Source of the DNA: Chryseosolibacter histidinae
Lineage (GTDB): Bacteria; Bacteroidota; Bacteroidia; Cytophagales; Cyclobacteriaceae
DNA: 64,000 nt
Direction: 5' to 3'
NCBI RefSeq assembly: GCF_018598225.1
Contig: NZ_JAHESF010000014.1
Coordinates: forward strand, 1-64,000
The notes under the pieces are model-generated. The model was not told where the DNA came from, did not search any database, and saw only the letters and a program-made list of their open reading frames with translations. Both the position numbers and the translations under genes were made by a program. This document shows positions 3,813 to 18,011 of this stretch, piece after piece. How positions within the stretch are numbered: the first letter of the stretch is position 1; each line of letters starts with the position of its first letter.

Positions 3813-5026
3813 GTTTGACGGATGAACTGCGAGTGATCGAAAGTAAAAGTTCTAAGGCCAAATCTTTGATAGGCAGTTGCCCTGAAATGTCCTTCGCTTA
3901 CCAGACAAAGCAAGAAGTACCAGCTTTATCCGTAAATGGATCAATATGCGGATACCGCGGAGAAGTGGGAGCATTTATGGCGCTACCCGGTGTTGGTAAA
4001 ACATGCCTTACCAATGAGGGCCTGGTGGCCGCCTTCTTTGCTTCACGATATAGTTTACAGAACGTTGACTGTTTTGACATTAAATACAATTCAGTCGGGC
4101 GCAAATGCTTATTGGGTGATACGGAACGAACAGAAGGCGATTGTAGTAAAACTTATAACAACCTTTTTAAGCGACTTGGAAGCCCAACGTCAATTCTCTC
4201 GGATGATCACCAGCACATCAAAGACCTCACCCACCTTGTAATGGCAGAGATCGGAGATGTGAAAAAACTTCGAATGACGCTAGAGGAATATGTTGGAACT
4301 GGAGAATACGAGTTGGTAATACTCGATGGCATTCTCGATTTCACAATATCAATGCTGGACGATAAAGACGCAATGAAGGTTATTAAATGGATTAGAGCGC
4401 TGGCGGTAAAATATAATTGCCTCATCGTAACTACCATTCACCCAAATAAAGGAACGGATAGTCCTGCCGGGCATGTTGGTGCATTCCTGTATCGATGGTG
4501 CCGTTTTCTTTTACTGCTCCGCTCAACTTCCGACAAGAATATTAAGGAAGTCACTGCTGATTTTCCGTTTGCTAAACTTAGCCATGCAAATATCGCAGAA
4601 TTTGAACCGATATACTTCAGTTGGAATCCCAGCGCAGGCATGATGACCACCTGCCAAGCGCCGGCGCCTCCTACCTATAAGATCAACTTTCTCAAACAGG
4701 CTGTGATGGAATTGCGGTTGAATCACAACCAGATCCCATCGGCAGTCCTGAAGGAGAAGTATTGCCATCTCGCCGGGGTAAAGCCGGAGACAGCAAAGAA
4801 ACACATTTTAAAGGCAGTCGAAGATGGGCTCTTAATCCAATCCGGGGAAGGAAAAGCAACATGCTACCTTCCTGCTTCTGACTGGAATCTGTCCTCCACA
4901 TCTCATTCGGGTATTGACGCGCCCTATATATATAAGGGCGCGATACCCGAATCAGAGAGCCAGGATGCCAAATCCCCGAATGACACCCGCATTAATGGTA
5001 AAGGATACCCGAATGATTGGGATTGA
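3809..5026 (+). CDS. RepA-like RecA-fold ATPase (replicative helicase type)
   Basis: This 405-aa protein has a Walker A motif ALPGVGKT at residues 58-65 and a Walker B strand ELVILDG with D173. It is followed by IVTTIHPNKGT, a sensor-like region seen in AAA_25/RepA-type hexameric helicases of plasmids and satellites. Residues about 290-350 resemble a winged helix (AVLKEKYCHLAGVKPETAKK). In this family the ATPase unwinds or remodels the element's own origin. The last 40 codons overlap an iteron/dyad array, so the C-terminus (SESQDAKSPNDTRINGKGYP) is probably constrained by DNA function. The next gene starts 34 bp later, inside the repeats. Confidence 0.8.
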   Translation: MSLTDELRVIESKSSKAKSLIGSCPEMSFAYQTKQEVPALSVNGSICGYRGEVGAFMALPGVGKTCLTNEGLVAAFFASRYSLQNVDCFDIKYNSVGRKCLLGDTERTEGDCSKTYNNLFKRLGSPTSILSDDHQHIKDLTHLVMAEIGDVKKLRMTLEEYVGTGEYELVILDGILDFTISMLDDKDAMKVIKWIRALAVKYNCLIVTTIHPNKGTDSPAGHVGAFLYRWCRFLLLLRSTSDKNIKEVTADFPFAKLSHANIAEFEPIYFSWNPSAGMMTTCQAPAPPTYKINFLKQAVMELRLNHNQIPSAVLKEKYCHLAGVKPETAKKHILKAVEDGLLIQSGEGKATCYLPASDWNLSSTSHSGIDAPYIYKGAIPESESQDAKSPNDTRINGKGYPNDWD

Positions 5027-5095
5027 TACCCGAATGATACCCAATTAAACAGATACCCGAATGAGCAAAATTTTAACCCAACAATACCCGAATCA
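4903..5095. other. Candidate replication origin: iterons plus large dyad with AT-rich centre
   Basis: The 12-mer ATACCCGAATGA is perfect at 5005-5016, 5026-5037 and 5053-5064. One-mismatch copies lie at 4943-4954, 4972-4983 and 5084-5095, and a perfect inverted copy lies at 4903-4914. Between the inverted copy and the first direct copy are 8-bp arms cgcgccct (4918-4925) and agggcgcg (4935-4942) around atatatata. The whole of 4903-4954 is therefore a long dyad with a melting-prone centre. Placement across the 3' end of a RepA-like gene and the start of a nuclease gene fits an iteron origin. Function is inferred from the layout. Confidence 0.6.
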
Positions 5096-5612
5096 AGACC
5101 CGATGAACGCATTGAAAGAACTGCAAGACCTTCACCAGAACGATAAGAAGAAGCGGTATCCGAACGTACCTGATCATTGCCTTCCTAATTCTAAGTTCAC
5201 CGACACCACTGCCAACGGTCTCACAAAGGCAATAATCACCTGGCTGACTTTGAACGGGTGCTGGGCGACCAGGATCAATACCACGGGCCGGTTCTTGAAG
5301 GGCAACACGATTACTGATGCCGTAGGCCGTGCTCGGGTGATGAAGGGAGCCTGGATTCCCGGAACGACCCGGAATGGCACCGCGGACATTCATGCCATAA
5401 TCAATGGCCGGCATGTCTCCATTGAGGTAAAGATTGGTCGTGATCGAATGAGCCCGGCACAGCACAAAACGCAAGAGGCGATCGAACAGTGCGGAGGCGT
5501 TTACATTGTTGCTCGAACCTTTGATGAGTTCCTGCGATGGTGGAATAATTTCGTGCTACGAGAAAAAAGAGATTCACAAATCATGTTAAACGATAAAAGC
5601 AAAAGACTATGA
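5061..5612 (+). CDS. VRR-NUC domain nuclease
   Basis: This 183-aa protein carries a PD-(D/E)XK-type VRR-NUC core at about residues 98-155: GTADIHAIINGRHVSIEVKI, in which D and then E-V-K are the catalytic acidic/Lys residues, followed by the Q-rich helix MSPAQHKTQEAIEQCGGVYI. Such nucleases in phages and satellites act on branched or replicating DNA. The start codon at 5061 lies inside an origin iteron. A second ATG at 5103 would remove the overlap with most repeats. It overlaps the next small ORF by 4 nt (ATGA). Confidence 0.8.
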   Translation: MSKILTQQYPNQDPMNALKELQDLHQNDKKKRYPNVPDHCLPNSKFTDTTANGLTKAIITWLTLNGCWATRINTTGRFLKGNTITDAVGRARVMKGAWIPGTTRNGTADIHAIINGRHVSIEVKIGRDRMSPAQHKTQEAIEQCGGVYIVARTFDEFLRWWNNFVLREKRDSQIMLNDKSKRL

Positions 5613-5773
5613 AGAAGACATTGAATTCCGAACAATCCCTTGAGGAAGTGGAGCTGCTAAAAAGGTTAACTACAGGACCGATCACCTGGAATAGAATATT
5701 AACTGTTCATTTCAAGCTGTGGTGGTTGAAGCGGAAACGAGCATTGAAGGCACGTCTCAGAACTATTTCTTAA
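5609..5773 (+). CDS. Small basic orphan protein (54 aa)
   Basis: The ATG overlaps the nuclease stop (ATGA) and opens a 54-codon frame. It has an acidic N-terminal helix (SLEEVELLKRL) and a very basic, aromatic C-terminus (FKLWWLKRKRALKARLR). Overlapping starts of this kind are the rule in this operon, which supports it being real. I recognise no family. It could be a small DNA- or membrane-binding accessory protein. Confidence 0.45.
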   Translation: MKKTLNSEQSLEEVELLKRLTTGPITWNRILTVHFKLWWLKRKRALKARLRTIS

Positions 5774-5793
5774 TCATAAACAATAAACAAACC

Positions 5794-6411
5794 ATGAGTA
5801 CTACTAAAAACACTATCAGCTTCGATGAAGCTTCGTTCAACAATGACCTGCAGGCCCTAGAAAAAGTGAGGGATTGCTTCCAGGATCTTCTTACTGAGTT
5901 CAACAAGATGAAACTGTTCAAGATCTCCAGCATCCAAGAGCTATTAGACCTGATAGCAGGCCGGGATGAATACGTGCGCAAACGGCTTGAGGATATTGTC
6001 GAAGTTCCAAAGTTCGGAATGTTTGCGGTATCCAAGAAAAAGGCGGTGGAGTTGATCGAGCTGGACTTATTCGCAGTAAACCGATTAATAGATTTTTGCG
6101 CGGATTGTCGATTGGACTATAGCGTCCACCTCAACATCTCCGGGAAAGATGTCAGCATCAACCAGGAACAGATCGACCGGCTGAGAGATGGCTATTCCAT
6201 GACCGCGAGCTCGTCCGGACAGGTAGAGCTTTGGAAGGCTCACAATGCAGCCGCAGAGGCGCTGAACAAACTGAACGCTTTACTCCAACCTATGGGCTCG
6301 ACAATCACGAAGGAATCTGTGTACAAAGCGCTGTTCGCTGTCGACGAAGGAAAGGTAAGCCCCAACACCTGGTTCTATCAATCCAGAAGAAGGGAGTTTA
6401 ATAACATCTAG
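5794..6411 (+). CDS. Hypothetical helical protein
   Basis: An open frame begins at 5719, but the ATG at 5794 follows the preceding small ORF without overlap and is the better start (205 aa). The protein is predominantly helical with regularly spaced leucines (FNNDLQALEKVRDCFQDLL) and no membrane segment. No domain is recognised. It is the last gene before a structured intergenic region and the run of HTH genes. Confidence 0.6.
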   Translation: MSTTKNTISFDEASFNNDLQALEKVRDCFQDLLTEFNKMKLFKISSIQELLDLIAGRDEYVRKRLEDIVEVPKFGMFAVSKKKAVELIELDLFAVNRLIDFCADCRLDYSVHLNISGKDVSINQEQIDRLRDGYSMTASSSGQVELWKAHNAAAEALNKLNALLQPMGSTITKESVYKALFAVDEGKVSPNTWFYQSRRREFNNI

Positions 6412-6519: not shown

Positions 6520-6804
6520 ATGACGAATGCTATGAAGACAACCAATGAAGAACAGGCGCAACACTTTATCCATCAAATGGAAGTAATACTTGCCCAGCTT
6601 AAAATATCTGTGGAAAATGAACTCCTGGTCCGCAAGCCGGTTGAAAAGCCAATGTTCGCCGAAGAGGCCTGCGCCTGGCTGGGCTGGTCACACGATAAAT
6701 TCTTCCGGATGGTAAAAGCCGGTGTGATCAAGGGCCACTGCAAAAAGTACGGCCATCCAATCTATCTAATGTCCGAGATCATTGAAGCGATAAAAAAGAA
6801 CTAA
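6520..6804 (+). CDS. Small HTH (excisionase-like) protein 2
   Basis: The 94-aa product has a helical N-terminus and a winged-helix core PMFAEEACAWLGWSHDKFFR, followed by MVKAGVIKGHCKKYGHPIYL and a C-terminal helix. This is the excisionase/HTH_17 pattern (EEA..WLG, then AGVIKG, then P.Y). ATGs at 6520 and 6532 are both possible. It is closely similar in layout to the next gene, which suggests tandem duplication. It probably regulates the element or acts as an Xis factor. Confidence 0.65.
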   Translation: MTNAMKTTNEEQAQHFIHQMEVILAQLKISVENELLVRKPVEKPMFAEEACAWLGWSHDKFFRMVKAGVIKGHCKKYGHPIYLMSEIIEAIKKN

Positions 6805-6819
6805 TTGACAAAAGTAACT

Positions 6820-7107
6820 ATGGAAACGAATCCACTTAGTGATGAGCAAATAGAGCGGTTAGCCATTGCATTGGTCGGCAAACTGAACAAGTACCTAGTA
6901 GTGGTGAGGCCAATGAACGGTAAGGAGGCAATAGCCTTCACCGGCAGAGGGGAGAGCACATTTTACCGCTGGGTTTCACTGGGGGTTATCAAACAGTACA
7001 GACCAGACCCCAACGGAGATCCGGTGTACTTCGCTGACCAGATAGTTGAGGGAATAAGGGAAGCCGGGAAGAGCAAGAAATCATACAATCCATTAAAGAA
7101 GAACTGA
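6820..7107 (+). CDS. Small HTH (excisionase-like) protein 3
   Basis: The frame can be read from a TTG at 6805, but the ATG at 6820 is the likely start (95 aa). The core GKEAIAFTGRGESTFYRWVS is followed by LGVIKQYRPDPNGDPVYFAD, so it repeats the helix, turn, wing and P-V-Y arrangement of its upstream neighbour. The C-terminus is Lys-rich. The stop of gene 2 and the start of this one are 15 bp apart. Confidence 0.65.
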   Translation: METNPLSDEQIERLAIALVGKLNKYLVVVRPMNGKEAIAFTGRGESTFYRWVSLGVIKQYRPDPNGDPVYFADQIVEGIREAGKSKKSYNPLKKN

Positions 7108-7131
7108 TGATTTGAAATAACCAAGCTCTTT

Positions 7132-7428
7132 ATGAAAACAATACAACTCGAAATCATTCCAGCGTCCTTCACAATCAAGGATGTGGACACGCTGTTATAT
7201 GCCCTGGAGACCAGAATCAAAGCCCGGGAGATCATGAACAAGGAAGAGGCGGCAGCATACTTATCCGGGATCAGTGTACGGATGTTAGAGAGGCTTTCAA
7301 AGGATGACATCATCCCCTGCCACTATGTACCTGGTACTTCTATAAGAGTGTGGTTGAAGTCTGAGCTGGTGGGGGTAGTAAAGACCTGGGGAAGTAAGAG
7401 AATTAGGAAGAAGAGCTCGCGGCAATGA
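7132..7428 (+). CDS. Small HTH (excisionase-like) protein 4
   Basis: The 98-aa product has the core MNKEEAAAYLSGISVRMLER followed by LSKDDIIPCHYVPGTSIRVW and ends in a basic tail (KRIRKKSSRQ). It is more diverged from the two preceding paralogues but keeps the same domain plan. The stop overlaps a possible 31-codon ORF by 4 nt. Confidence 0.6.
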   Translation: MKTIQLEIIPASFTIKDVDTLLYALETRIKAREIMNKEEAAAYLSGISVRMLERLSKDDIIPCHYVPGTSIRVWLKSELVGVVKTWGSKRIRKKSSRQ

Positions 7429-7520
7429 CACAAGAATGTACAATTGCCTGCCAAAAATGCAAAAGGTACTCCGGGACGAACCTCATCAGCGTGCAATGTA
7501 TGCGAAGCTGCGAAAAATAG
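7425..7520 (+). CDS. Possible cysteine-rich micro-protein (31 aa)
   Basis: An ATGA overlap with the preceding gene opens a 31-codon frame rich in Cys (CTIACQKC, then C.MRSC), a pattern that could bind zinc. The length is close to what chance allows, so the call rests only on the overlap and the Cys spacing. Confidence 0.25.
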   Translation: MTQECTIACQKCKRYSGTNLISVQCMRSCEK

Positions 7521-7546
7521 ATTGTACAGGGGTATTTCAATTTTCT

Positions 7547-7587
7547 GTTAACATGGTAAGAATGTTAACAAGTCATTAAAGTTAACA
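7547..7587. promoter_or_regulatory. Three phased GTTAACA sites, candidate operator
   Basis: gttaaca occurs at 7547-7553, 7564-7570 and 7581-7587, exactly 17 bp apart each time. Each contains the palindrome GTTAAC. The array ends 18 bp before the ATG at 7606 and follows a gene-free gap, so it is a plausible binding site for one of the HTH proteins just upstream. Confidence 0.4.
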
Positions 7588-7605
7588 TCTGAAATCAGAT
7601 CCATT

Positions 7606-8193
7606 ATGATAACCTACACAAGGAAGGAATTTATAGAATCATGTGGGCATCAATGGAATGATGCCTCGAGAGCAAAAATCTCAATGTGGGTCAAACGAGG
7701 AAATATTATCGAGCTGGACGGCAAGATTGATATTTCACATCCGCAAAACAAAGATTGGTTGTTGAAGAAACGGGCAGAAACCGAGACGCCGGAGCCTGCT
7801 CCCATGAACTCCGGTCGCCGCCCGGATCAGCTCAATGAGTTGGAGGTTGATTTTTGGCAATTTACAGATCAGGGTGTTTACCACGTTGAATCGGAAAAGT
7901 TACTCGCCGGCCTTATGAAACAAGTTCAGACGAGCTGTACGCCTATGCGGGCCATACCAGTAGACTTAGCCCACAACCTGAGCGCCGGTGCGGTTGTAGA
8001 AGTCATCAATGTGCTCTTAACGCGTGAGATAGCGTTAAGAGCGCAATACGGAATGGGAACCAGTCGCGCAGAGAAAAGTAAGCTCCTGAAGGAATTCACG
8101 GAGATAGCCAGGGAGCACATTGACGGCTGCCGACGTGAGATGGAGGAAACGATTGATGGAATACTTGAAGACCATGGCAACTCAGGGAATTGA
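7606..8193 (+). CDS. Hypothetical protein with N-terminal HTH-like region
   Basis: In this 195-aa product, residues 1-55 (TRKEFIESCGHQWNDASRAK, then ISMWVKRGNIIELDGKIDIS) look like a winged helix of the kind found in small phage DNA-binding proteins. The remainder is acidic and helical, with EITIAREHIDGCRREMEET-like heptads near the end. A small-terminase-type role is conceivable, but no large terminase subunit is present in the element. It opens a new transcription unit after the 17-bp phased repeats. Confidence 0.6.
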   Translation: MITYTRKEFIESCGHQWNDASRAKISMWVKRGNIIELDGKIDISHPQNKDWLLKKRAETETPEPAPMNSGRRPDQLNELEVDFWQFTDQGVYHVESEKLLAGLMKQVQTSCTPMRAIPVDLAHNLSAGAVVEVINVLLTREIALRAQYGMGTSRAEKSKLLKEFTEIAREHIDGCRREMEETIDGILEDHGNSGN

Positions 8194-8497
8194 GAACGCT
8201 GCAGAGATCGTAAGCCTGTGCGAAAAGTTTACGCCGGAGCAGCTCAAGCTGTATGCAAATCTTCTAAGGTCTGTTAGCCGGCTGACTGCAAACAGGAGCA
8301 AAGGAGGAAAATCCAAAGGTGATCAGGCATACCAAAGATTCAAAGTTTGGGCCGCTCAAAGCGGTTTTGATTTTGAAAATTACAAAACCACTGCACAGCT
8401 AAATCTTGCGACTATCATCACAACAAAGGGGTTCCCAATCTCTGAGAAGACCGCGGCCAAGTACCGGTTAAAATATCTCAGTGAAGAAAACAAGTAG
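8156..8497 (+). CDS. Hypothetical basic protein
   Basis: The frame is open from 8120, but the ATG at 8156 (113 aa, with ggagg 10 bp upstream) or 8174 gives less overlap with the preceding gene. The middle is Lys/Gly/Ser rich (NRSKGGKSKGDQAYQRFKVW) and the C-terminus resembles a helix-turn-helix (FPISEKTAAKYRLKYLSEEN). Function is unknown; DNA binding is plausible. A terminator directly overlaps its end. Confidence 0.5.
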   Translation: MEYLKTMATQGIENAAEIVSLCEKFTPEQLKLYANLLRSVSRLTANRSKGGKSKGDQAYQRFKVWAAQSGFDFENYKTTAQLNLATIITTKGFPISEKTAAKYRLKYLSEENK

Positions 8498-8520
8498 ATA
8501 TAGCAACATCTACTTGTTTT
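8487..8520 (+). terminator. Intrinsic terminator
   Basis: Arms aaaacaagtagat (8487-8499) and atctacttgtttt (8508-8520) form a perfect 13-bp stem with an 8-nt loop. The right arm ends in a T-run continuing with cctttcc. It closes the early (replication/regulation) part of the element and precedes the tail genes. Confidence 0.75.
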
Positions 8521-8584
8521 CCTTTCCATTACTTTTCTTCTCTTAGCCTCTCTTTCCAATCTTTGCTGTATCAATTCACTTGTG

Positions 8585-8785
8585 ATGGAACAGTTGAAAG
8601 AGATGGACACAGCACCCCTACCCAAAGTATACACGCCGGAAGAGGTGAGGACTATTTTCAATATCTCCGCGCCAACCTTTAGGGACTGGGTCCAGTCGGG
8701 CATATTCCAAAAAATTACAATCCCCGGAAAGCGTAGGGTTTTCATCACATCCCAATCTGTAGAGAAACTTATTTCCGGACGATGA
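8585..8785 (+). CDS. Small HTH (excisionase-like) protein 5
   Basis: The 66-aa product (ATG 8585; a GTG at 8582 is also in frame) has the core YTPEEVRTIFNISAPTFRDW followed by VQSGIFQKITIPGKRRVFIT. This is a compact HTH_17/excisionase domain with almost nothing else. Its stop overlaps the start of the baseplate gene (ATGA), so it may be a late-gene regulator or simply the leader gene of the tail operon. Confidence 0.65.
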   Translation: MEQLKEMDTAPLPKVYTPEEVRTIFNISAPTFRDWVQSGIFQKITIPGKRRVFITSQSVEKLISGR

Positions 8786-9960
8786 TTACAATTCCAACCG
8801 TCAAACAACTGTATGAAGACATCATAGCTGATCTCGAATCTGAGTATGGCGAAAGCATTCCTTCCTTTGGGAAAGTTTTTCTGCGCGGGCTGGCTGCAGT
8901 GCAAGCGATGAAGCTGAAACTTTACTATCTCAGCCATGCCAACCTTCAGAAAAATATCTTCGTCGATACAGCTGATCCGGAATCCGCCGGAGGCACTCTG
9001 GAGAGGTTTGGACGCATCAAGCTCGGACGAAACCCATTCCCAGCCCGTGCGGGCCAATACGAAATCCAAGTTACCGGAACACCCGGATCAGTGATCAACG
9101 CACTCACCACATTCAAGAGCGATGACACATCGAACAGTCCTGGAAAGCTGTACATCCTGGATAGTCCCTTTACTCTGGTGACCAATCCAGACACCTGCAA
9201 CGTTCGTGCATTGGAAGCCGGATTGGATAGCCAGTTGGATATCGGAGATACACTAACGGCTACTGCGCCCATCGCAGGAGTAAATAGAAGTGCCGAGGTG
9301 GTATCAGAAGTTGTGGAACCTTTTTCAGCGGAGACTACAGAAGATTATCGACAAGCTTCAATAGACGCTTATCAGCTTGAGCCCCAAGGTGGAGCGCCAT
9401 CCGATTTCAGATTGTGGGCAAAAGATGCGCAAGGTGTAAAACAAGCCTATCCTTACGCCAAGCCAGGTGTAACAGCCGAGATCAATCTTTACATTGAAGC
9501 CACAACAGCAGATTCAACAGACGGCAAAGGGACGCCATCTGCTGGATTACTGGCTGATGTGAAAGAGGTTGTAGAGTTTGACCCTGATACAACAAAATCT
9601 TTAGACGAGAGAGGCAGAAGGCCGATAGGAATTTTCCAAGTTCACTACTTACCAATTACTCCGTTAAATGTCGATATCAACGTTTCTGGATTCGTTGGAA
9701 TTACGCCATCTATTTTGGCTCAGATTGAAAATGCACTTGAGTTGGCCATTAGCAATATAAGGCCATTTATAGCAGGCGCAGATATTACCGAAAACAAGAA
9801 CGACATCCTTGCTATAAACAAGGTAATATCCATCATTCTTGAGGCAAGGCCTGGAAGCGTATTTGGTACAGTAGCATTAAACGTCGGCGGATCGCCAGCT
9901 AGTACATACCTTTTTACCGACGGGGAAATACCATTCTTAAATTCTGTAACCATTCCTTAA
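8782..9960 (+). CDS. Baseplate J-like tail protein (gp47 type)
   Basis: This 392-aa protein has the organisation of contractile-tail baseplate wedge proteins (phage Mu gp47, P2 gpJ). The N-terminal helix is TVKQLYEDIIADLESEYG. The conserved stretch ANLQKNIFVDTADPESAGGT, GRIKLGRNPFPA follows, then a beta-rich insertion. Further on come ETTEDYRQASIDAY and GGAPSDFRLWAKDAQGVKQA, and the C-terminus is rich in beta-alpha units. It builds the wedge that connects tail tube and fibres. It is followed 4 bp later by the propeller protein, the usual gp47-gp48 gene order. Confidence 0.85.
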   Translation: MITIPTVKQLYEDIIADLESEYGESIPSFGKVFLRGLAAVQAMKLKLYYLSHANLQKNIFVDTADPESAGGTLERFGRIKLGRNPFPARAGQYEIQVTGTPGSVINALTTFKSDDTSNSPGKLYILDSPFTLVTNPDTCNVRALEAGLDSQLDIGDTLTATAPIAGVNRSAEVVSEVVEPFSAETTEDYRQASIDAYQLEPQGGAPSDFRLWAKDAQGVKQAYPYAKPGVTAEINLYIEATTADSTDGKGTPSAGLLADVKEVVEFDPDTTKSLDERGRRPIGIFQVHYLPITPLNVDINVSGFVGITPSILAQIENALELAISNIRPFIAGADITENKNDILAINKVISIILEARPGSVFGTVALNVGGSPASTYLFTDGEIPFLNSVTIP

Positions 9961-9964
9961 GACG

Positions 9965-12900
9965 ATGGCATTAGAAGACACCATACTAAAGCTCACAAAG
10001 CAACTCTATCCAACGGGGAGGGCATTTAAAATGCCTGCTGTTAGCGTTTCAGGTGGCCGCTGGACTTCTCGTACTTCTGCCGCGGACAATAGCTGGAATT
10101 CAATTGCCTTTGGTAGTAATCTGTTCGTGGCTGTGTCATTAAATGGCACCGTAATGACGTCATCAGATGGCATAACTTGGACGCTCAGAACAGCCGCCGC
10201 TAGTAACTTGTGGCGCTCAGTGACCTACGGAAACGGCTTGTTCGTTGCCGTATCCTCGACAGGCGCAGGGAACCGAGTGATGACTTCGCCTGATGGGATT
10301 ACCTGGACATCAAGGTCGAGCGCGGCCGATAATGGCTGGAATTCAGTTAGCTATGGCAGCGGGCTATTTGTTGCCGTCTCTGACGGAGGAGCCAATCGCG
10401 TCATGACGTCGCCAGACGGGATCACGTGGACGAGTAGAAGTGCCTCCGCAGCGAATCAGTGGCAATCAGTCACATATGGTAATGGGACTTTCGTAGCGGT
10501 TGCTATATCCGGTACCGGCAATCGTGTAATGACCAGTCCAGACGGCATAACCTGGACCTCGAGAACAAGTGCTGCAGATAACTTCTGGCAATCGATAACG
10601 TATGGCAACAGTCTGTTCGTTGCTGTCTCTAATTCTGGAAGTAACAACCGTGTGATGACCTCGCCGGATGGCGTAACGTGGACGATAAGAACGAGCGCGT
10701 CTGGTAATGCCTGGCGGTCTGTTGCGTATGGATCCGGAAATTTCATAGCTGTGGCATCTTCAGGAACTGGTGACCGCGTGATGACCAGCGCAGATGGCAT
10801 CACCTGGACAAGCCGAACAAGTGCAGCGGATAATAGTTGGAATTCGGTGACCTTCGGAAAAGGGTTGTTTGTATCGGTGTCTTCAAGTGGCACAGGAAAT
10901 CGAGTAATGACCAATCAAGGTGCAGGTGGATTCTTGGAGCGCCTTCATAAAGGATTGGCACGGAGTGAAGCTCGCAGTTACAGAGATTCGGTTTCTATTT
11001 TAGATAGCATCCTTCCGGACAATGATAACTTCACAGCTGACGACGCTACGCAATGGGAACGTCGCCTTGGATTGATAACGAATGCATCAGTTTCGTTGTC
11101 GGATCGGAAGCTCGCTATTAAGCGGAAGATGCAACATCCCGGAAGTGTAAAGGCAAGACAACACTATTTGTATCTGCAGGGGCAACTTCAAGCTGCTGGT
11201 TTCAATGTAAATGTATTTGAGAATCGATTCCCAAGTGGGCTAGGTGGGTACACCACAGAGATATTTGGAGGTCTTATTAATATACCGGCTTGGACTTCAC
11301 GAACAAGCGCGGCGGATAACGAATGGCAATCTGTCGCTTTTGGGAATGGTATTTTCGTAGCGGTGGCTGCGACGGGCACGGGCAACCGTGTGATGACCAG
11401 TCCGGACGGGATCACGTGGACGAGTAGAACTGGCGCTGCAGATATTGCGTGGCGATCTGTCACTTATGCAAATAATATTTTTGTTGCAGTCGCCGCTTCA
11501 GGTACAGGGTTTCGCGCTATGACTTCGCCAGACGGAATAAATTGGACCAGCAGGGCCACCCCTGTTGATAACGAGTGGAGTTCAGTGACCTATGCAGCTG
11601 GACTATTTGTCGCTGTATCAGGGCCGTCAGGCACGGGCAACAGAGTGATGACAAGTCCGGATGGAATTAACTGGACCTCAAGAACCAGCGCAGCGGACAT
11701 ACAATGGAATTCAATTACCTATGGGAATGGTCTCTTTGTAGCTGTTGGTAATGCAGTGTCAGGATTTGGGCGCGTGATGACCTCACCGGACGGTATCACG
11801 TGGACATTAAGAAATGCAGCCTCTGCTATATCATGGACCAGCGTTTGCTTTGCAAAGCAGAAATTTATTGCAGTTGGAAACACTGGAACTGGAACCAGGA
11901 TGATGACTAGTCCGGACGGAATAACTTGGACGACTGTCGCAGGTATTGCAGATAAAGATTGGCGATCAATAGTTTTTGGTGCTGGTTGGTTTGTTGTTGT
12001 GAGCGCAGGCGCTGTCACAACAGATGCCGTTATGATTTCTCAAGATGGAATTAATTGGATAAGTCAGAATATCCCATTCGCAGTCACGTGGACGTCGGTC
12101 ACCTATGGCACTGGCCTGTTCGTGGCTGTCGCCGCATTCGGAACTGGAAATGGCGCAATGACATATACTTTAACCAATCAATACATATGCGCAAATCACA
12201 TTGATACACAAATAGATTCTTTGTTTCTGCTTTTAGACCAGGATAACCTAAAGACATCTTTTTTAATAGCTGATGAAATTAACAATGTTTTTAGTTGGAC
12301 TTTGAGAACGTCAGCTGCAGATAGCATATGGAACTCAGTTGCATATGGGAATTCAGTATTTGTCGCTGTTTCAGAGAACGGACCAGGAAATGATCATGTC
12401 ATGACTTCACCGAATGGCATAACCTGGACATTGCGAACAGCGGCAGGGAGTGATGAGTTATGGAGATCCGTGACGTTTGGTAACGGGATCTTTGTTGCGG
12501 TCGGTGGTAATTCTGCTATAATGACTTCTACCGATGGAATAACCTGGACCTCAAGAACAAGTCCAGTCAGTGGATCGTGGTATGCGGTCACTTATGGTAA
12601 TGGGTTGTTCGTCGTAGTTGAAGGAGCATCTGACGGAACGCGCGTTATTACTTCATCAGACGGAATAACGTGGACGCAGAGAACCGGGTCTGCTAATTTA
12701 GCCTGGAGATCCGTAACATATGGCGCAGGTCTCTTCGTAGCTGTAGCTCAAACAGGCACTGGCAACCGTGTCATGACTTCACCAGATGGCATCACCTGGA
12801 CAAGCCGAACAAGTGCAGCGGATAATAGTTGGCAATCGGTCACTTATGGCAATGGGCTTTTTGTCGCCGTAGCCGCATCAGGCACGGGAAACAGAGTAAT

Positions 12901-13282
12901 GACCAGCCCCGATGGAATAACTTGGACTTCTCGGACAAGCGCCGTTGACAACGCTTGGCGAAGTGTTACTTATGGCGCTGGTGTTTTTGTAGCTGTTGCA
13001 TCCACTGGAACAGGCAATAGAATAATGTTCTCTAATGACGGAATATCCTGGAGCATCACAACAAGCCCGGCCGACAACCAATGGTGGTCTGTATTGTACG
13101 CGAACAATATATTTGTTGCTGTTGCCAACTCAGGGGCTGGAGATCGGGTGATGACCTCAACATATGGCAGAAGTCCATCATTCGTCAATGTGGATGCAGA
13201 TAGAAAGGATGAATTCAGGCAGTTGATCTTGAAAACAAAACCAACACAGACGATTGGTTTCACATTTGTAAACTACATATGA
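9965..13282 (+). CDS. YmfQ/gp48-like tail-tip protein carrying three seven-repeat beta-propellers
   Basis: This 1105-aa protein has a tail-protein scaffold in pieces. Residues 1-32 (TILKLTKQLYPTGRAF), about 318-442 (FLERLHKGLARSEARSYRDS and ATQWERRLGL, the YmfQ/DUF2313 signature), 737-777 and 1069-1105. Between these pieces lie three blocks of 40-42-residue repeats, at about 33-317, 443-736 and 778-1068. Each block contains seven repeats on the pattern W-S-V-T-Y-G-x-G-L-F-V-A-V then MTSPDGITWT, an Asp-box-like turn. Seven blades per block imply three complete propellers inserted in surface loops. Family members without inserts are about 200 aa. The position after gp47 points to a receptor- or fibre-binding role. 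Confidence 0.85.
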   Translation: MALEDTILKLTKQLYPTGRAFKMPAVSVSGGRWTSRTSAADNSWNSIAFGSNLFVAVSLNGTVMTSSDGITWTLRTAAASNLWRSVTYGNGLFVAVSSTGAGNRVMTSPDGITWTSRSSAADNGWNSVSYGSGLFVAVSDGGANRVMTSPDGITWTSRSASAANQWQSVTYGNGTFVAVAISGTGNRVMTSPDGITWTSRTSAADNFWQSITYGNSLFVAVSNSGSNNRVMTSPDGVTWTIRTSASGNAWRSVAYGSGNFIAVASSGTGDRVMTSADGITWTSRTSAADNSWNSVTFGKGLFVSVSSSGTGNRVMTNQGAGGFLERLHKGLARSEARSYRDSVSILDSILPDNDNFTADDATQWERRLGLITNASVSLSDRKLAIKRKMQHPGSVKARQHYLYLQGQLQAAGFNVNVFENRFPSGLGGYTTEIFGGLINIPAWTSRTSAADNEWQSVAFGNGIFVAVAATGTGNRVMTSPDGITWTSRTGAADIAWRSVTYANNIFVAVAASGTGFRAMTSPDGINWTSRATPVDNEWSSVTYAAGLFVAVSGPSGTGNRVMTSPDGINWTSRTSAADIQWNSITYGNGLFVAVGNAVSGFGRVMTSPDGITWTLRNAASAISWTSVCFAKQKFIAVGNTGTGTRMMTSPDGITWTTVAGIADKDWRSIVFGAGWFVVVSAGAVTTDAVMISQDGINWISQNIPFAVTWTSVTYGTGLFVAVAAFGTGNGAMTYTLTNQYICANHIDTQIDSLFLLLDQDNLKTSFLIADEINNVFSWTLRTSAADSIWNSVAYGNSVFVAVSENGPGNDHVMTSPNGITWTLRTAAGSDELWRSVTFGNGIFVAVGGNSAIMTSTDGITWTSRTSPVSGSWYAVTYGNGLFVVVEGASDGTRVITSSDGITWTQRTGSANLAWRSVTYGAGLFVAVAQTGTGNRVMTSPDGITWTSRTSAADNSWQSVTYGNGLFVAVAASGTGNRVMTSPDGITWTSRTSAVDNAWRSVTYGAGVFVAVASTGTGNRIMFSNDGISWSITTSPADNQWWSVLYANNIFVAVANSGAGDRVMTSTYGRSPSFVNVDADRKDEFRQLILKTKPTQTIGFTFVNYI

Positions 13283-13326
13283 AAGACTTATTCGGGTTTG
13301 ATTTTAATACATAAACTAAAGAATCT

Positions 13327-13575
13327 ATGCTAACAGTATCTATTGGTTATTCTGATACTCAGAAGTATTTCAGTAAAACGCACAGCAATGTCCTGCCTGC
13401 TGGCTTTGAAATCATGGCGGATGAGGACCTGGAAAAGATCACAGATCCGGTATTGAAAATGTCATTGAAGGCGAGGAACGACATCAACAAAGCGGTGACC
13501 GCATCCATCACGCAGCGAACTGCAGCCTTTGAAGCTGAAGTAAGAGAGCTTCTCGGTCTTGATAAAACAGTTTAG
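13327..13575 (+). CDS. Small protein following the tail-tip gene
   Basis: The 82-aa product is unrecognised. It has a short beta-type start (MLTVSIGYSDTQKYF) followed by a long helical segment (DPVLKMSLKARNDINKAVTA). Its place 44 bp after the propeller gene, in the same direction, suggests a tail-associated or chaperone role, but that is positional inference only. Confidence 0.55.
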   Translation: MLTVSIGYSDTQKYFSKTHSNVLPAGFEIMADEDLEKITDPVLKMSLKARNDINKAVTASITQRTAAFEAEVRELLGLDKTV

Positions 13576-13588: not shown

Positions 13589-13798
13589 TTACATACAGCC
13601 GAACCGGGCTTTATTTTCGTTCATTACTTCTATCGCCGCTACCAGGATCTGGGCATTAAAGGCTTTCTTGTTCAGCACTTTATTTACCCACGCGCGAGAC
13701 TTTCTTGATTTAGAGGCCACCTTGTCCTGATCACCGTCGAACAGCCAGGACTTTACTTCGTCTATCCTTGCTTCTAGTTGTGGAGGGAGTGATTTCAT
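13589..13798 (-). CDS. Small HTH-like orphan protein
   Basis: The 69-aa product contains DKVASKSRKSRAWVNKVLNK, which resembles the helix-turn-helix of XRE-like repressors, then FNAQILVAAIEVMNENKARF. It converges on the tail operon, with only 13 bp between the stops. It may be a short regulator; no family is recognised with confidence. Confidence 0.5.
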   Translation of the reverse strand: MKSLPPQLEARIDEVKSWLFDGDQDKVASKSRKSRAWVNKVLNKKAFNAQILVAAIEVMNENKARFGCM

Positions 13799-13825
13799 AA
13801 AAGTTGGATTTTCAGGAAGATAAAA

Positions 13826-13851
13826 AAAGCCCCGTGTTATCGGGGCTTTTG
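13826..13851. terminator. Intrinsic terminator
   Basis: Arms aaaagccccg (13826-13835) and cggggctttt (13842-13851) form a perfect 10-bp stem with T-rich flanks on both strands, so it can work in both directions. On the minus strand it ends the 13862-14702 gene pair. Confidence 0.8.
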
Positions 13852-13861
13852 GTTGCCCTTC

Positions 13862-14083
13862 TTAAAGGCAACCGCGAGAAATTATTGAATAAAAAATATC
13901 ACCATTGAGCAGTTCTATTTCTCGTTTATTAGCTTCCGATTGTGGCAGCGTTGATCTAATAAGTTCAAAAATTTCCCAGTTCACTTCCTGATTCACTTTC
14001 AGGTAGTCACGCAAGCGCTCCGGCTTAATGCCGTTTATTTTAAGTATGTCTATTAATCGCGTGTGTTCCACAGGAATGAGCAC
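13862..14083 (-). CDS. Small orphan protein
   Basis: The 73-aa product (HTRLIDILKINGIKPERLRD, then VNQEVNWEIFELIRSTLP) is helical and has the feel of a small HTH protein. No family is recognised. It is separated by 1 bp from the upstream 14085-14702 gene and ends at a terminator, so the two form an operon. Confidence 0.55.
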   Translation of the reverse strand: MLIPVEHTRLIDILKINGIKPERLRDYLKVNQEVNWEIFELIRSTLPQSEANKREIELLNGDIFYSIISRGCL

Positions 14084-14084
14084 T

Positions 14085-14702
14085 TTATTTTGCTTTGGAT
14101 TTCTTTCGACTGACCGAATCCCATATTCTCACTCGCTCTTCTAATATCCAGACAAATAGATCTGCCTGCTTTATTGGTGGTGTGTAGGTTGGTAGGTTAT
14201 TAAGATGCAATTCCATCCTGCTCAACTCTAAAGCGTTCCTAAGTAGTTTTACCACAGATCTGTACTCCTGAAAATGCTTCGATTCCACTTGGCTATCTAG
14301 TGCGATCATCTGGATGAAGCACAATTGGAGTATATCTCTAGCTTCTTTTGCACCATCGCCCTTCACATCCTCGGCATTCAGGCGACATCCATTAACTTTT
14401 GTTCCTTTGCCCATCAAAAAAGCACCGATCATTGAGGGGACTTGAGTAAGGTTCATTCTGTCAACTCTGGCCAAGGCTCTATCTATGTCACTCCTCATAC
14501 TGCCACTAGGCCATTTATTAATACCCCCGTCTATTTTTTCAAGAATGAAAAACGTGTCTTTTTCGCGTTTTCTGACTGTGTATAAAAATTTGGAAAGGGT
14601 GTGCCCCACGAAATGGAATTGCTCCAAAATCTGTATAATCGTTTTTTCAGCAAGCTCGAGTTTCTCCCTTCCTGATAAATCCTGGCTTTGTTTCTTTTTC
14701 AT
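14085..14702 (-). CDS. Hypothetical protein
   Basis: The 205-aa product is basic at both ends (MKKKQSQDLSGREKLELAEK and SVSRKKSKAK) with a helical middle. There are no signal peptide, transmembrane segment or catalytic motifs that I recognise. Together with the following small gene it forms a leftward unit divergent from the XRE-PIN cassette. Confidence 0.6.
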   Translation of the reverse strand: MKKKQSQDLSGREKLELAEKTIIQILEQFHFVGHTLSKFLYTVRKREKDTFFILEKIDGGINKWPSGSMRSDIDRALARVDRMNLTQVPSMIGAFLMGKGTKVNGCRLNAEDVKGDGAKEARDILQLCFIQMIALDSQVESKHFQEYRSVVKLLRNALELSRMELHLNNLPTYTPPIKQADLFVWILEERVRIWDSVSRKKSKAK

Positions 14703-14859: not shown

Positions 14860-15054
14860 ATGGATCAATTGAATAGGATACAGGAAGTAATAAACAAGAA
14901 AGGGATAACAGCTTATCGGCTGCACAAGGACACAGGGATTACTTATGCGCTGATTAGTGCTTATATTAAGAATTTGAGACAGCCAACGTTAGAAACCCTC
15001 AAAAGAATATCTGAAAGTCTTGGAGTAAAGGGCAGGGATTTGATTAACTTTTAG
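14860..15054 (+). CDS. XRE/Cro-CI family repressor
   Basis: The 64-aa product is a bare HTH_3 domain: IQEVINKKGITAYRLHKDTG, TYALISAYIKNLRQPTLETL, then KRISESLGVKGRDLINF. All five helices of the lambda-repressor fold are present and there is no effector domain. It probably binds the ATATAGTATAT sites directly upstream and controls the cassette that starts 3 bp after its stop. Confidence 0.85.
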   Translation: MDQLNRIQEVINKKGITAYRLHKDTGITYALISAYIKNLRQPTLETLKRISESLGVKGRDLINF

Positions 15055-15056
15055 AG

Positions 15057-15833
15057 ATGGAACTTAAAATAGATATACCGAGTATTATAGAGTTCAAACT
15101 TGAAGGTGGGCCTAATATTAAGCCTGAAGCATTTAAGGCCAGGGAAATCGCTACTATTATTTTAAGCCTAGAAGAATCTTTAAAGGCAATTGCTATTAAA
15201 GAAAACCCCGAATTAGACCCTGAGCAGCTTTTCATAAGTCTAGTTCATGTAAAAAGGGAGAGCAATGGGTTAGGTTTTTTTCCTAGTGTTAAACAACTTG
15301 GGGGAGCATTCTTAATACTCGCAAGTTGTGTTCAGGATCAATCATATGAACGACTTCCTTTGAGGGCAATCGAAGGGTTAAAAGATCTCCAAAAAATTAT
15401 CATACAAAAACCTAATTGTGTTGGCTCATTTGTATCTGGTCAGGAGCGAATATCACAAATAAAGCCGTCGACAAAAATTGAAGTTCCTGACTATGGGCAT
15501 GTCACTGGCGAGACAGTTCTTTACGGAGTGATTCAGCGTGTTGGAGGTGTTGTCCCGAAAATATTCCTAAGACAACATAATGGTGAATCTTTAAGTATTG
15601 ATGTAACTGAAGAAATAGCCAGAAAAGTAGGCTCGAGACTTTATACTGCTGTTGGATTGACAGGACTAGCTACATGGTCGCCGAATGATAATAAAATACT
15701 ATCGTTTAAGGTAAGCGGAATACTCGATTATGAGGAGGTGCCAAACATTCAGGCATTTTCCGAGTTAAGAAATAGAGTTGGGAAATATTGGGATGAAATA
15801 GAAAATATTGAACAGATGTTATCCTTAGAATAA
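15057..15833 (+). CDS. Uncharacterised protein paired with a PIN-domain protein
   Basis: This 258-aa soluble protein has a helical N-terminal half. A beta-rich C-terminal module (GETVLYGVIQRVGGVVPKIF, then SLSIDVTEEIARKVGSRLYT and VGLTGLATWS) reads like an OB- or SH3-like barrel. I do not recognise the family. It starts 2 bp after the XRE stop and ends 12 bp before the PIN gene, so the three genes form one unit. It could be the antitoxin, a sensor, or a substrate-recruiting partner of the nuclease. Confidence 0.65.
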   Translation: MELKIDIPSIIEFKLEGGPNIKPEAFKAREIATIILSLEESLKAIAIKENPELDPEQLFISLVHVKRESNGLGFFPSVKQLGGAFLILASCVQDQSYERLPLRAIEGLKDLQKIIIQKPNCVGSFVSGQERISQIKPSTKIEVPDYGHVTGETVLYGVIQRVGGVVPKIFLRQHNGESLSIDVTEEIARKVGSRLYTAVGLTGLATWSPNDNKILSFKVSGILDYEEVPNIQAFSELRNRVGKYWDEIENIEQMLSLE

Positions 15834-15845
15834 ACCCACCAACTG

Positions 15846-16337
15846 ATGGCTAACCTCGTATGTATTGATTCAATGATTTGTGTATGGGGAATAAAAAAGA
15901 AAGCTACGCAAGGTCAAGAGTTCATGGTAGCAAAAACCGAGGCTTTCTTAAAATCATTGGATGCACAGAATACAAAAATAATAATACCTGCTCCAGTCAT
16001 TACAGAAATTCTCTGCCCAGTTGACATAAGTCAAAGGGCAGGACTAATGTCATCGATAACAAAACATTTTATGATTGCGCCCTTGGATACGATGGCTGCC
16101 ATAAAGGCTGGAGAAATATGGAACGAAAACAAAGATAGCTGGAAGGAAATCTACGGCTCTTCAGAAGAAGAAGGTCTAAGGAATAGGTTTAAGTACGATA
16201 TACTAATCGCTGGGATTGCCATAACCAGGAATGTCTACTGCCTTTATTCAAATGATGCCCGCCTTCGAGGCATTTGCAGCAAACATATAGATACTCAAAG
16301 TTTGCCAGATATAGCGGTACAAAGAGAGTTATTCTGA
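15846..16337 (+). CDS. PIN-domain ribonuclease-like protein
   Basis: The 163-aa product has the acidic residues expected in PIN nucleases: D8 in CIDSMICVWG, E54 in PVITEIL, D118 in KYDILIAGIA, and D137 in SNDARLRG. PIN proteins of this size are typically metal-dependent RNases, for example VapC-type toxins. The neighbouring XRE and unknown genes suggest a toxin-antitoxin or defence cassette, but the partner is not a recognised VapB. Confidence 0.75.
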   Translation: MANLVCIDSMICVWGIKKKATQGQEFMVAKTEAFLKSLDAQNTKIIIPAPVITEILCPVDISQRAGLMSSITKHFMIAPLDTMAAIKAGEIWNENKDSWKEIYGSSEEEGLRNRFKYDILIAGIAITRNVYCLYSNDARLRGICSKHIDTQSLPDIAVQRELF

Positions 16338-16338
16338 A

Positions 16339-16404
16339 AACCGAACCCTGTTCAGGATCGCGGAAGCTTTAGGGGTAAATCCGAAGGAATTAATCAATAG
16401 CTAA
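16339..16404 (+). pseudogene. Orphan C-terminal fragment of a second XRE gene
   Basis: Directly after the PIN stop the DNA can be read as NRTLFRIAEALGVNPKELIN followed by a stop. This is unmistakably the C-terminal helix of an XRE repressor and aligns codon for codon with the end of the intact gene (TLETLKRISESLGVKGRDLI). It has no start or N-terminus. The stop abuts the ATG of the AlbA_2 gene, so an XRE gene once preceded that gene directly. Confidence 0.65.
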
Positions 16405-17343
16405 ATGAGAACAGACAACTGGTCGATAGAAAAAGTCATTAACCTTATCAGCGATCATGTCGAGGAAAGCACCCATTTGGAGTATAAGGCTGCTAAAGCG
16501 ATTGAAGACAAAGAGAGCATATCCATTGATGTCTCATCTTTTGCAAATGCGGGCGGTGGCGTAATTATCTATGGGATAAAAGAATCCAAGGAAAATAAGC
16601 ACCTTCCCGAACGCATTGATCCAATCGTTCGTAAAGACTTTTCAAAAGAAACACTTGAGCAAATAATTAATTCCAATATATTCCCTAAAGCCATAGTTCA
16701 GATAGAACCTTTAGAGATCGATGATCTGCACGTGGTCTATGTGGTTACTGTTCCGCAAGGTGAGACAGCACATCAAGCATCAGATTTTAGATACTATAGG
16801 AGGTATAACTTTCAAAAACTCCCAATGCAGGATTATGAGATTCGGGACATAATGAATCGAGTAAGGCATCCAAAAATCCGCCTACATTTAGAAATTGATG
16901 AGATTACACATACAAGTATTCATAATAGAGTAATAACCGGAGTTGGTTTGAAAATCTTTTTGGAAAATGAGGGCACGGTCCTTGCCAACTATGTTAACTA
17001 CGATTTAGTAATACCTTCTGCGCTGTTGTTGGAGCCCGACGGCTACAGACAAAAAATTATCCAAGGCATTCACATGCTTGAAATATCGGGGCAAAATATG
17101 GTCCGGGATTTATTGGATGTTGTTAATACGACACAGGGCCAGGAAGCGAAATTCGGCCCTGGCCGATACCACCCGATACTTCCAAAACGTAGTTTTTTTG
17201 AGAGGTCATTTCCCATAGTCACGCATCAATTGCAATTATTAAGACGACAAAAAGTTCCTATTTCCTGGACCGTTTATACAGACAATGCCGCCCCAGTTAC
17301 AAAGAATTTAACTCTTGCTGATATTGAGCACAAACACATGTAG
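16405..17343 (+). CDS. AlbA_2 (Schlafen-type) domain protein
   Basis: In this 312-aa protein, residues about 17-125 match the AlbA_2 domain: ESTHLEYKAAKAIEDKESI, DVSSFANAGGGVIIYGIKES, then PQGETAHQASDFRYYRRYNF. The family is linked to nucleic-acid binding or cleavage and is common in mobile elements and immune loci. The C-terminal 170 residues are beta-rich with no recognised domain. The start directly follows the orphan XRE fragment, suggesting an original XRE-AlbA_2 pair. Confidence 0.8.
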   Translation: MRTDNWSIEKVINLISDHVEESTHLEYKAAKAIEDKESISIDVSSFANAGGGVIIYGIKESKENKHLPERIDPIVRKDFSKETLEQIINSNIFPKAIVQIEPLEIDDLHVVYVVTVPQGETAHQASDFRYYRRYNFQKLPMQDYEIRDIMNRVRHPKIRLHLEIDEITHTSIHNRVITGVGLKIFLENEGTVLANYVNYDLVIPSALLLEPDGYRQKIIQGIHMLEISGQNMVRDLLDVVNTTQGQEAKFGPGRYHPILPKRSFFERSFPIVTHQLQLLRRQKVPISWTVYTDNAAPVTKNLTLADIEHKHM

Positions 17344-17480: not shown

Positions 17481-18011
17481 TTATTTTTTCTTTGCTTTGT
17501 ACAGGTTTTTTATTTCTTCCTTGCGACTGATGTTCTTTTTTTGCTGCCGGTGAATATCCAAATCCTTCACAAAATCAAATCTCTCTATTGAAGGGACGCG
17601 AAATGTCATTACCGTCTGTCCATTAACATTTGAAATTGCAAAGTCTCCCTTAGTTATGATATCCATCCCAAGCAAAAAGCCGGCGGAGGCATCATCACTA
17701 AGTTCTTCACATTCTGTTACGGGTAGAGTAAAAGAAACATTCTGATTATTGAGAACTATTTTTACAGCATAGACGGGAACTCCTGTTTTAACACCATGGA
17801 CCCCTTTAACATTTGTCTTGGTTACCGGTATCAATGCAAGTTTCTGAACTAAGGATTTTGTGATCGCAGATCCGGTCGCTCCAGTATCCCAGATAGCTTT
17901 CGTGCTTTCCTTTTGGTTGGTAAGCGTGTTGTAAATATCAATGGGTGATTCAATAACCCTGGCTATGCCATTGTTGGCTCGAGTTAAGGCATGGACAGTA
18001 ACTTGCATCAA
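17481..18011 (-). CDS. Retropepsin-like aspartic protease
   Basis: The 176-aa product has the single-domain aspartyl protease hallmark WDTGATGSAI (D42-T-G) and the second family motif GFLLGMDIITKGDFAI (about 111-126). Such half-size enzymes work as dimers. There is no signal peptide, so the protease is cytoplasmic; the C-terminus is Lys-rich. It overlaps the upstream small gene by 4 nt, so the two are a unit. The substrate is unknown. It lies in the element's cargo zone, opposite in direction to the AlbA_2 gene. Confidence 0.8.
   Translation of the reverse strand: MMQVTVHALTRANNGIARVIESPIDIYNTLTNQKESTKAIWDTGATGSAITKSLVQKLALIPVTKTNVKGVHGVKTGVPVYAVKIVLNNQNVSFTLPVTECEELSDDASAGFLLGMDIITKGDFAISNVNGQTVMTFRVPSIERFDFVKDLDIHRQQKKNISRKEEIKNLYKAKKK

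Follow-up and report, generated by a model that had tools for sequence, protein, structure and literature searches.

The first 64,000 nucleotides of contig NZ_JAHESF010000014.1 of Chryseosolibacter histidinae (assembly GCF_018598225.1; this whole stretch is hereafter called the window) harbor an element of 19,269 bp at a tRNA-Arg gene, with a direct 21-bp repeat at each end. Twenty-six open reading frames (ORFs) of the element were analyzed. They include an integrase, a small terminase subunit (TerS) with a cohesive-end (cos) site just upstream, and a pair of baseplate genes coding for a J/gp47-like wedge protein (J) and a gp48-like tail-tip protein (gp48). The features on which the interpretation depends are given below by position and strand, with E denoting the expectation value.

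553..573, no strand: left attachment repeat (attL), 21-bp direct repeat of the tRNA-Arg 3' end
743..2149, plus strand: tyrosine recombinase (integrase); Pfam SAM_5 E 1e-8, Phage_integrase below cut-off, PHROG 1 E 5e-18
7464..7508, plus strand: cos site, AGGTACTCC-N20-GCAATGTATGCGAAGC, with the probable cohesive end at 7496-7508
7533..7587, plus strand: cosB-like stretch, TATTTC 24 nt past cosN followed by three GTTAACA repeats
7606..8193, plus strand: TerS, 195 residues, recognized by a phage-only profile
8582..8785, plus strand: helix-turn-helix (HTH) protein of the HTH_17 family, 67 residues; Pfam HTH_17 E 2e-7
8782..9960, plus strand: J, baseplate J/gp47-like wedge protein, 392 residues; Baseplate_J E 9e-20, PHROG 6 baseplate wedge E 6e-33
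9965..13282, plus strand: gp48, gp48-like tail-tip protein, 1,105 residues; phrog_4920 E 3e-42, phage-family profile E 4e-96, Pfam Phage_Mu_Gp48 E 7e-4 (below the Pfam cut-off)
13327..13575, plus strand: 82-residue follower, open frame
19822..19842, no strand: right attachment repeat (attR), within the 3' end of tRNA-Arg (19820-19896, minus strand)

A sequence-only reading of this DNA had described a mobile element of 19 kb with a leader HTH gene, J-like and gp48-like genes and a small follower. All four genes are present with open frames, as judged from Pfam, PHROG and phage profiles, and the extent agrees with the distance between the att repeats. The stop of the HTH_17 gene overlaps the start of J by four bases. 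The same tRNA-Arg was found free of the element in both of the congeneric genomes compared. The left flank comprises 552 bp only, as the window begins at base 1 of the contig, and it showed no match to the flank of the congeners at this tRNA-Arg; truncation by assembly was rejected because both att ends lie inside the contig. The element is thus integrated and carries its own integrase and att sites, as is typical of satellites. Very probably it is a cos/TerS phage satellite and not the remnant of a phage. The reading favored here, with a probability of roughly 0.6, is that a helper myophage packages the element and that the element's own J–gp48 tip goes onto the tails. Confidence, in figures or in words, is expressed throughout as a judgement and not as a computed quantity.

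The window TerS was recognized by the phage-only profile with E 1.2e-13, the next element ORF giving E 0.37; scanned alone, it had no family match in Pfam or PHROG. It matches the gene located directly upstream of the gpA-type large terminase subunit (TerL) in J-bearing phages. Among the 23 aligned members of this family, the 22 others match PHROG 5193 and 13 of the 23 match PHROG 57 'terminase small subunit', neither of which is matched directly by the window protein. TerS is present and TerL absent in the element, and pairing with a helper TerL, as in a phage-inducible chromosomal island (PICI), would be a prediction. The sequence-only reading had counted recognisable terminase genes as evidence against it; the finding of a small subunit with no large subunit favors a satellite.

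The cos pattern (7464-7508) was matched once in the window and in none of 100 shuffles, the pattern for this test having been written after inspection of the window. Independently of this window-based test, a looser pattern retrieved 21 stretches from IMG/VR. TerS lies downstream of the motif in 16 of these 21, and TerL follows in 15 of the 16, the sixteenth (L151) being truncated; the remaining five all terminate a few bases from the motif and represent right ends of contigs. The 21 include three pairs of apparent copies, and 18 of the 21 compared phage regions are distinct. The J-bearing contigs L030, L045, L064 and L080 begin at ATG-A/T-ATGCGAAGC. Contigs starting and stopping at one point of the motif would be expected from cohesive ends, and the 13 bases common to them, ATNNATGCGAAGC, probably form the overhang. 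The word TATTTC follows the motif at 24 nt in the window, in eight of the 18 distinct phage regions and in a related element from another genome (G216, described below). Short words are iterated after cos, namely GTTAACA in the window and other words in other phages, and are reminiscent of lambda cosB. The GTTAACA repeats are possible TerS-binding sites. Taken alone the window repeats are weak, as 20 of 300 shuffles matched them, and no clear repeat was found beside cos in the phage region L145. Among 395 genomes of the class, the cos pattern was found only in the window's own genome. The 15-base cos core used by itself gave 22 matches, in contexts devoid of the left box, which were read as chance. 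A helper-type packaging signal and a packaging protein, both characteristic of satellites, are hence found together in the element.

To search for other virion genes, 17 family profiles were grown from the phage contig L004 as seed over all fetched loci and run on the 26 ORFs (TerS, TerL, sheath, tube, tape measure, gp25-like, J, gp48, portal, protease and seven others). In L004, Pfam recognized a gpA-type TerL (two domains), a lambda-type portal, a tape-measure-like minor tail protein, a gp44-like hub and a Clp-type protease; sheath, tube and gp25-like protein of L004 had no Pfam match and were named from position and from the annotation of Cellulophaga phage phi38:2. The only matches in the element were TerS, J and gp48, with the next best at E 0.013. 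Additional profiles were built from annotated proteins of phi38:2 and FCOV-F56. The major capsid family (18 rows) gave no clear match (best E 0.38), and the structural gp30 family matched an aspartyl protease-like ORF weakly (E 0.0048). Apart from J and gp48, PHROG scans of the 26 ORFs matched no head or tail family. They gave no match of the Sid/Psu/Delta type either, these being general scans with no P4-specific profile. The absence of capsid, portal, large terminase, tube and sheath genes reported by the sequence-only reading was therefore upheld as far as these profiles and scans reach, and by the phage-family profiles the tape measure is lacking as well. Its statement that only distal tail genes are carried holds insofar as no other head or tail gene was found; it needs to be amended for TerS and cos, which lie outside the 8585-13575 segment it dealt with. 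Lack of a whole-virion gene set is in keeping with a satellite, and the TerL, portal, capsid and full tail of a temperate phage or prophage were absent by profile.

The tail pair appears to have been derived from phages. Interruption of this pair in relatives would have spoken against the sequence-only reading; gp48 follows J in all 82 loci carrying both genes, out of 86 J loci, with a distance of 1,117-1,214 bp between the two starts. J showed 40-42.5% identity to Flavobacterium and Cellulophaga phages among the 20 matches listed of 173, and up to 63% identity to uncultured phages. Among 21 phage contigs compared, J and gp48 of the element were nearest to the same contigs, which is consistent with joint acquisition of the two genes. 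The J tree places the element inside the phages, with L019 as its sister (support 83/79). J departs from the phage consensus at one of 74 columns conserved to at least 90% (rank 8 of 80), and the gp48 core at one of 38 conserved columns, a gap (rank 22 of 75). On these alignments both proteins show phage-like constraint, which argues against long decay. One weak relative of J with a solved structure was detected by sequence (9g8s, E 9e-4). A contig labelled Phycisphaerales (L006) also carries this J, which groups with the J of other phage contigs, and its bin label may be wrong. A second Baseplate_J match in the host genome (G000:C35:108117-108623, L003) lies in a 1,268-residue frame and perhaps belongs to a contractile injection system.

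The gp48 protein of the element is unusually built. The phage gp48 core profile (236 positions) aligns to it in four pieces, at residues 2-28, 320-462, 720-772 and 1071-1105, which together span profile positions 2-236 minus one, the third piece being weak. From this alignment the core is present and split at three places. The inserts contain 18 S-x-D/N-G-x-x-W boxes of the propeller-like Asp-box type, six per insert; seven blades per insert would be a guess from length. Pfam matched DUF6242 and EPTP repeats. Synonymous divergence between blades is saturated, and no ratio is claimed. The other gp48 proteins of the phage family have 218-588 residues, and 12 of 82 are longer than 290. Five long ones (L004, L017, L054, L064 and L080) carry a single insert close to the second position. 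A single additional domain, inserted or appended, was observed in the phage gp48 proteins at L004:11180-12661 (NHL-like), L036:6200-7966 and L054:10173-11735, and loops of gp48 seem in general to be sites where further domains can dock. Propellers of a similar kind were met in unrelated phages, one of them with a tail-fibre annotation, and the propellers of the element likely present a receptor-binding domain. Structure prediction of gp48 from the single sequence was unusable (mean predicted local distance difference test score, pLDDT, 38), and no solved relative of gp48 was found by sequence.

Two further elements, in the genomes denoted G216 and G078, share parts of the early region of the window element, which contains the following genes besides the integrase.

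2146..2979, plus strand: 277-residue protein overlapping the integrase stop; the same place in G216 holds an ORF with no recognized similarity
3059..3322, plus strand: 87-residue weak HTH_17-like protein, E 0.036 (below cut-off)
3246..3812, plus strand: 188-residue ORF of no family, start position uncertain
3809..5026, plus strand: AAA_25 ATPase, DnaB/primase-helicase-like; Pfam E 5e-8, PHROG 19 E 6e-6; by sequence probably a replication protein
5061..5612, plus strand: VRR-NUC-like nuclease; Pfam E 0.026 (below cut-off), PHROG 93 endonuclease E 1e-10
5719..6411, plus strand: 230-residue protein, also in the G216 satellite (25% identity, E 1.7e-14)
6520..7428, plus strand: three small proteins (94, 100 and 98 residues), possibly of AlpA-like role, two of them matching PHROG excisionase weakly (E 0.026 each); the HTH-like 100-residue ORF has a weak PHROG 'terminase small subunit' match (E 0.045)

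A search of 390 genomes of the host family with the TerS profile returned two, i.e., this genome and G216. The G216 element (L172:1134-7327, G216:C40) spans 6,150 bp between 44-bp repeats at a tRNA-Thr and has about eight genes, including an integrase, a 236-residue ORF, an HTH_17 protein (matching the window HTH weakly, E 0.0027), a 229-residue ORF, the VRR nuclease (44% identity), the relative of the 230-residue protein and TerS (PHROG 5193 E 7e-10; PHROG 57 E 0.024). No J, gp48, TerL or virion gene was found in it. Its cos variant carries three changes within the cosN box, and the left box is shifted by one base. The 82-residue follower of gp48 matched the G216 TerS weakly (E 0.0016), for which the TerS profile gave no support (E 0.37). 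The nuclease profile, searched against 172 genomes of the order, found five. The nuclease is common to the window, G216 and the G078 element (L181, reverse strand, 1982-9616; G078:C34), which occupies 7,589 bp at a tRNA-Asn and encodes an integrase, an HTH protein, the nuclease and a 229-residue protein, all but the nuclease being nearer to G216 than to the window. Its TerS belongs to another family (PHROG 51, E 5e-27) and is followed by two uncharacterised proteins; no tail gene was found in the element, and no cos of the window type was seen in the stretch. To the left of it lie two further partial copies of the tRNA end, perhaps scars of earlier elements. On these comparisons, the shared core appears to consist of nuclease, cos and TerS together with an integrase at a tRNA. 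J–gp48 is an accessory of the window's element, since the G216 and G078 relatives have core parts and no tail gene.

Nuclease relatives also occur in G338, G287 and G341, the last with three internal stops. No window-type TerS was found in these three, and other TerS types were checked on two G338 and three G287 proteins only and on no G341 protein. The nuclease by itself was rejected as a satellite marker, as an Adhaeribacter plasmid replication region also carries a relative. In a cos-bearing phage of the family, a VRR-like nuclease gene (E 3e-4) was observed just before cos and TerS (L155:5961-6380, minus strand, and also L156); such a phage is a possible source of the satellite's nuclease–cos–TerS order. 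Neither G216 nor G078 yielded the AAA protein. Relatives of it in G267 and G282 (L104-L111; four places each, 28-33% identity) were rejected as satellites because their 20-kb stretches contain no relative of J, gp48 or TerS; an integrase or helicase gene lies nearby in some, the contents vary, and these loci are perhaps integrative elements. Further AAA relatives were found in gut-phage records and plasmids. Searches of viral contigs with AAA, TerS, integrase and nuclease confirmed no close relative of the element.

In the proposed mechanism, the element sitting at tRNA-Arg would be induced by helper infection, excised by its own integrase and replicated by its AAA ATPase. Regulators recognized in the element are the HTH_17 and Xre-type proteins, and the AAA_25 ATPase is the only probable replication protein. 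The element TerS would bind the repeats beside the helper-type cos and recruit the gpA-type TerL of the helper, and helper heads would thereby be filled with element DNA. Heads have a minimum-fill requirement, as known from lambda. Full-size heads could take up a 38.5-kb dimer, the length of which would be about 82% of that of a 47-kb phage genome. J of the element would dock on the helper baseplate and fit the gp25-like and hub proteins, with which its high conservation is consistent, and gp48 would present the three variable propellers as a cell-binding tip. The resulting particle would consist of helper head, tube and sheath with the tip of the element. The helper is most likely a Bacteroidota myophage related to Cellulophaga phi38:2 and Flavobacterium FCV-1. 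Tip replacement and a redirected host range, as put forward by the sequence-only reading, fit the anatomy of the element. Replacement of the tip by J–gp48 is considered rather probable, and a satellite host range independent of the helper is suggested tentatively. It is proposed with similar reserve that the satellite sets the entered cells via its own tip and belongs to a modular Bacteroidota group, having an add-on slot between TerS and attR and a TerS that is swapped to match helpers.

Several observations weigh against this proposal. The sequence-only reading had suggested a search for a helper prophage in the genome, and none was found; no gpA-type TerL exists in the host genome, other terminase types not having been searched. 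Every J locus fetched elsewhere shows at least one further virion gene, and the gp25-like wedge gene that precedes J in phages is not in the element by profile. This J was found in one of 245 genomes of the host family and one of 395 of the class (overlapping draws), and with a single J–gp48-carrying element, retention within a satellite lineage is not demonstrable. The G216 cos was spotted by eye and was missed by an automatic search with fixed spacing (up to 5 mismatches), and the integrases of the window and G216 have no recognizable similarity. The window TerS is only 13-24% identical to the other members and differs at five of nine conserved columns (rank 12 of 13). A Foldseek search with its model (pLDDT 79, predicted template modeling score 0.36) found no PDB relative at E 0.001 (best E 1.6), and no solved relative was convincing by sequence. 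Specialisation of this TerS is favored over relaxed constraint because its frame is open and a matching cos is present.

Among other explanations, a working cos/TerS satellite could use J–gp48 as a weapon that competes with or poisons helper baseplates and leaves the helper with defective progeny, the satellite itself travelling on the helper tip. Satellite and prophage proteins are known to block tail assembly elsewhere, namely Tai (PMC11364771) and Rta of PLE11 (PMC12987554), and surplus wedge proteins could titrate their partners. However, J and gp48 are of full length and conserved like virion proteins, and a 1,105-residue tip with three propellers would be a costly poison; this explanation is regarded as unlikely. 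It is doubtful to a greater degree that J–gp48 is a passenger left by recombination with a phage and has no present role in a working satellite. There is a single example of the pair and two relatives in the same bacterial family do without it, and the data also agree with capture in the recent past from a phage outside the sample. Against a passenger, the end branch of the element in the J tree (0.38, against a median of 0.27) contrasts with the estimate for neutral replacements in J, at most about 0.06 per site (Poisson upper bound 4.7/74), and the whole 3.3-kb gp48 frame has stayed open.

The element could also have started as a temperate J-family phage and lost the genes from TerL to the gp25-like gene as well as those after gp48. 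The phage order of cos, TerS, J and gp48 agrees with such a loss, and upstream of cos some of the cos contigs carry an integrase (L159, L145/L161) or a VRR-like nuclease (L155/L156) with weak matches (E 3e-5 to 3e-4). Against it, G216 and G078 share core parts with no tail gene found, and no relative of the AAA, 277-residue and 230-residue proteins was detected in the 11 cos contigs whose upstream part reaches 4 kb or more (about 8 distinct). No broken gene was noticed, the att ends are intact and a new HTH gene abuts J. Such an origin is improbable. A decayed prophage was likewise rejected as the principal explanation. The sequence-only reading had left open whether the element is a satellite or a tail remnant; the first alternative is strongly supported by cos, TerS, the att ends and the tail-less relatives, while the second is disfavored because J and gp48 are constrained, neither att ends nor frames are damaged, and the sampled phages of the family did not yield the early genes. 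A tailocin or contractile injection device, for which baseplate genes in a chromosome could speak, is hardly credible, given that sheath, tube and tape measure are absent by profile and cos and TerS are present.

Known systems were compared with the satellite reading. The nearest precedent for a tip supplied by the element would be the chimeric tails of the PICI-like elements (PLE) of Vibrio cholerae reported in 2026, with PLE11 virions as the case in point. The tape measure and hub encoded by PLE satellites are incorporated into chimeric tails, as shown by Western blot and mass spectrometry, and mutants show a role of the tape-measure gene in transfer (PMC12987554). Like PLE, the element would be a chromosomal myophage satellite encoding some of the tail proteins (in PLE tape measure, chaperone and hub) of helper-made tails (PMC12987554). 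It differs in bringing a wedge J and a propeller tip gp48 and in residing in another host phylum; no tape measure was found by phage-family profile or PHROG, PLE sequences not having been compared. According to the PLE paper, a tape measure had not been described for any other satellite, and the legend of its Extended Data Fig. 10 lists capsid-forming PICIs (cf-PICIs) with predicted tmp genes (PMC12987554). With PICIs and the Staphylococcus aureus pathogenicity islands, as generally understood and as partly described in PMC11364771, the element shares an integrase at one end, att sites, HTH regulators, a replication protein and its own TerS. Unlike these, it has cos packaging with an expected helper gpA-type TerL and tail-tip genes, and no stl/str or pri-rep was recognized. 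The cf-PICIs are comparable as satellites encoding part of their own particle, but there the head is made and the tail borrowed (PMC10690885), whereas the element has a tail tip and no head gene was found; profiles for capsid, portal, protease and TerL were negative, and a cf-PICI would have its own capsid, portal and both terminase subunits. The hallmark of the PICMI satellites is integration adjoining fis (PMC10803314), and the element lies at tRNA-Arg. The 16.8-kb Pseudomonas satellite AH14b has one tail-gene homologue, tail assembly protein I; this protein is described as absent from the mature tail, and no terminase was found there (PMC4936722). The myophages phi38:2 (Cellulophaga) and FCOV-F56 (Flavobacterium) have the same J–gp48 order, with 40-41% identity in J and 47-49% over about 105 residues of the gp48 core, but they possess full virion modules in genomes of 46-54 kb, and their gp48 has 253-263 residues. 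In the literature searched, mainly open-access and excluding preprints, no satellite with wedge and receptor-tip genes was met. No description of satellites in Bacteroidota was met in that literature either, covered partly by titles and abstract openings; one candidate paper was rejected, as its topic is lateral transduction (PMC12946183).

The remaining features of the element surround the tail genes and fill its right part.

8120..8497, plus strand: 125-residue protein, no relatives found
8486..8521, plus strand: 14-bp terminator-like hairpin separating the TerS unit from the J unit
13589..14702, minus strand: three ORFs (69, 73 and 205 residues), a regulatory block by position only
14860..15054, plus strand: Xre/Cro-type repressor, E 6e-10
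15057..17343, plus strand: cargo, comprising a 258-residue protein, a VapC-like PIN protein (NCBIfam E 2e-4, below cut-off) and a Schlafen/AlbA_2 protein
17481..19651, minus strand: cargo, comprising aspartyl protease-like, 88-residue and 374-residue proteins

The region contains seven terminator-like sites, compared with a mean of 5.5 in shuffles. The genes at 15057..17343 are possible defence or toxin–antitoxin cargo. Those at window positions 14860-19651, including the Xre repressor and the aspartyl protease-like protein, may together be defence cargo, and no clear PADLOC system match was obtained among them.

In general, satellites are taken to reach only those cells that the tail of the helper can reach. 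If the favored reading is true, a satellite supplying its own tip could enter other cells, and its host range and the spread of its cargo could become independent of the helper. It would also offer a genetic handle on what satellites gain from altered tails, a question left by the PLE work. The cos motif, the TerS profile and the G216 and G078 relatives make a Bacteroidota satellite group searchable.

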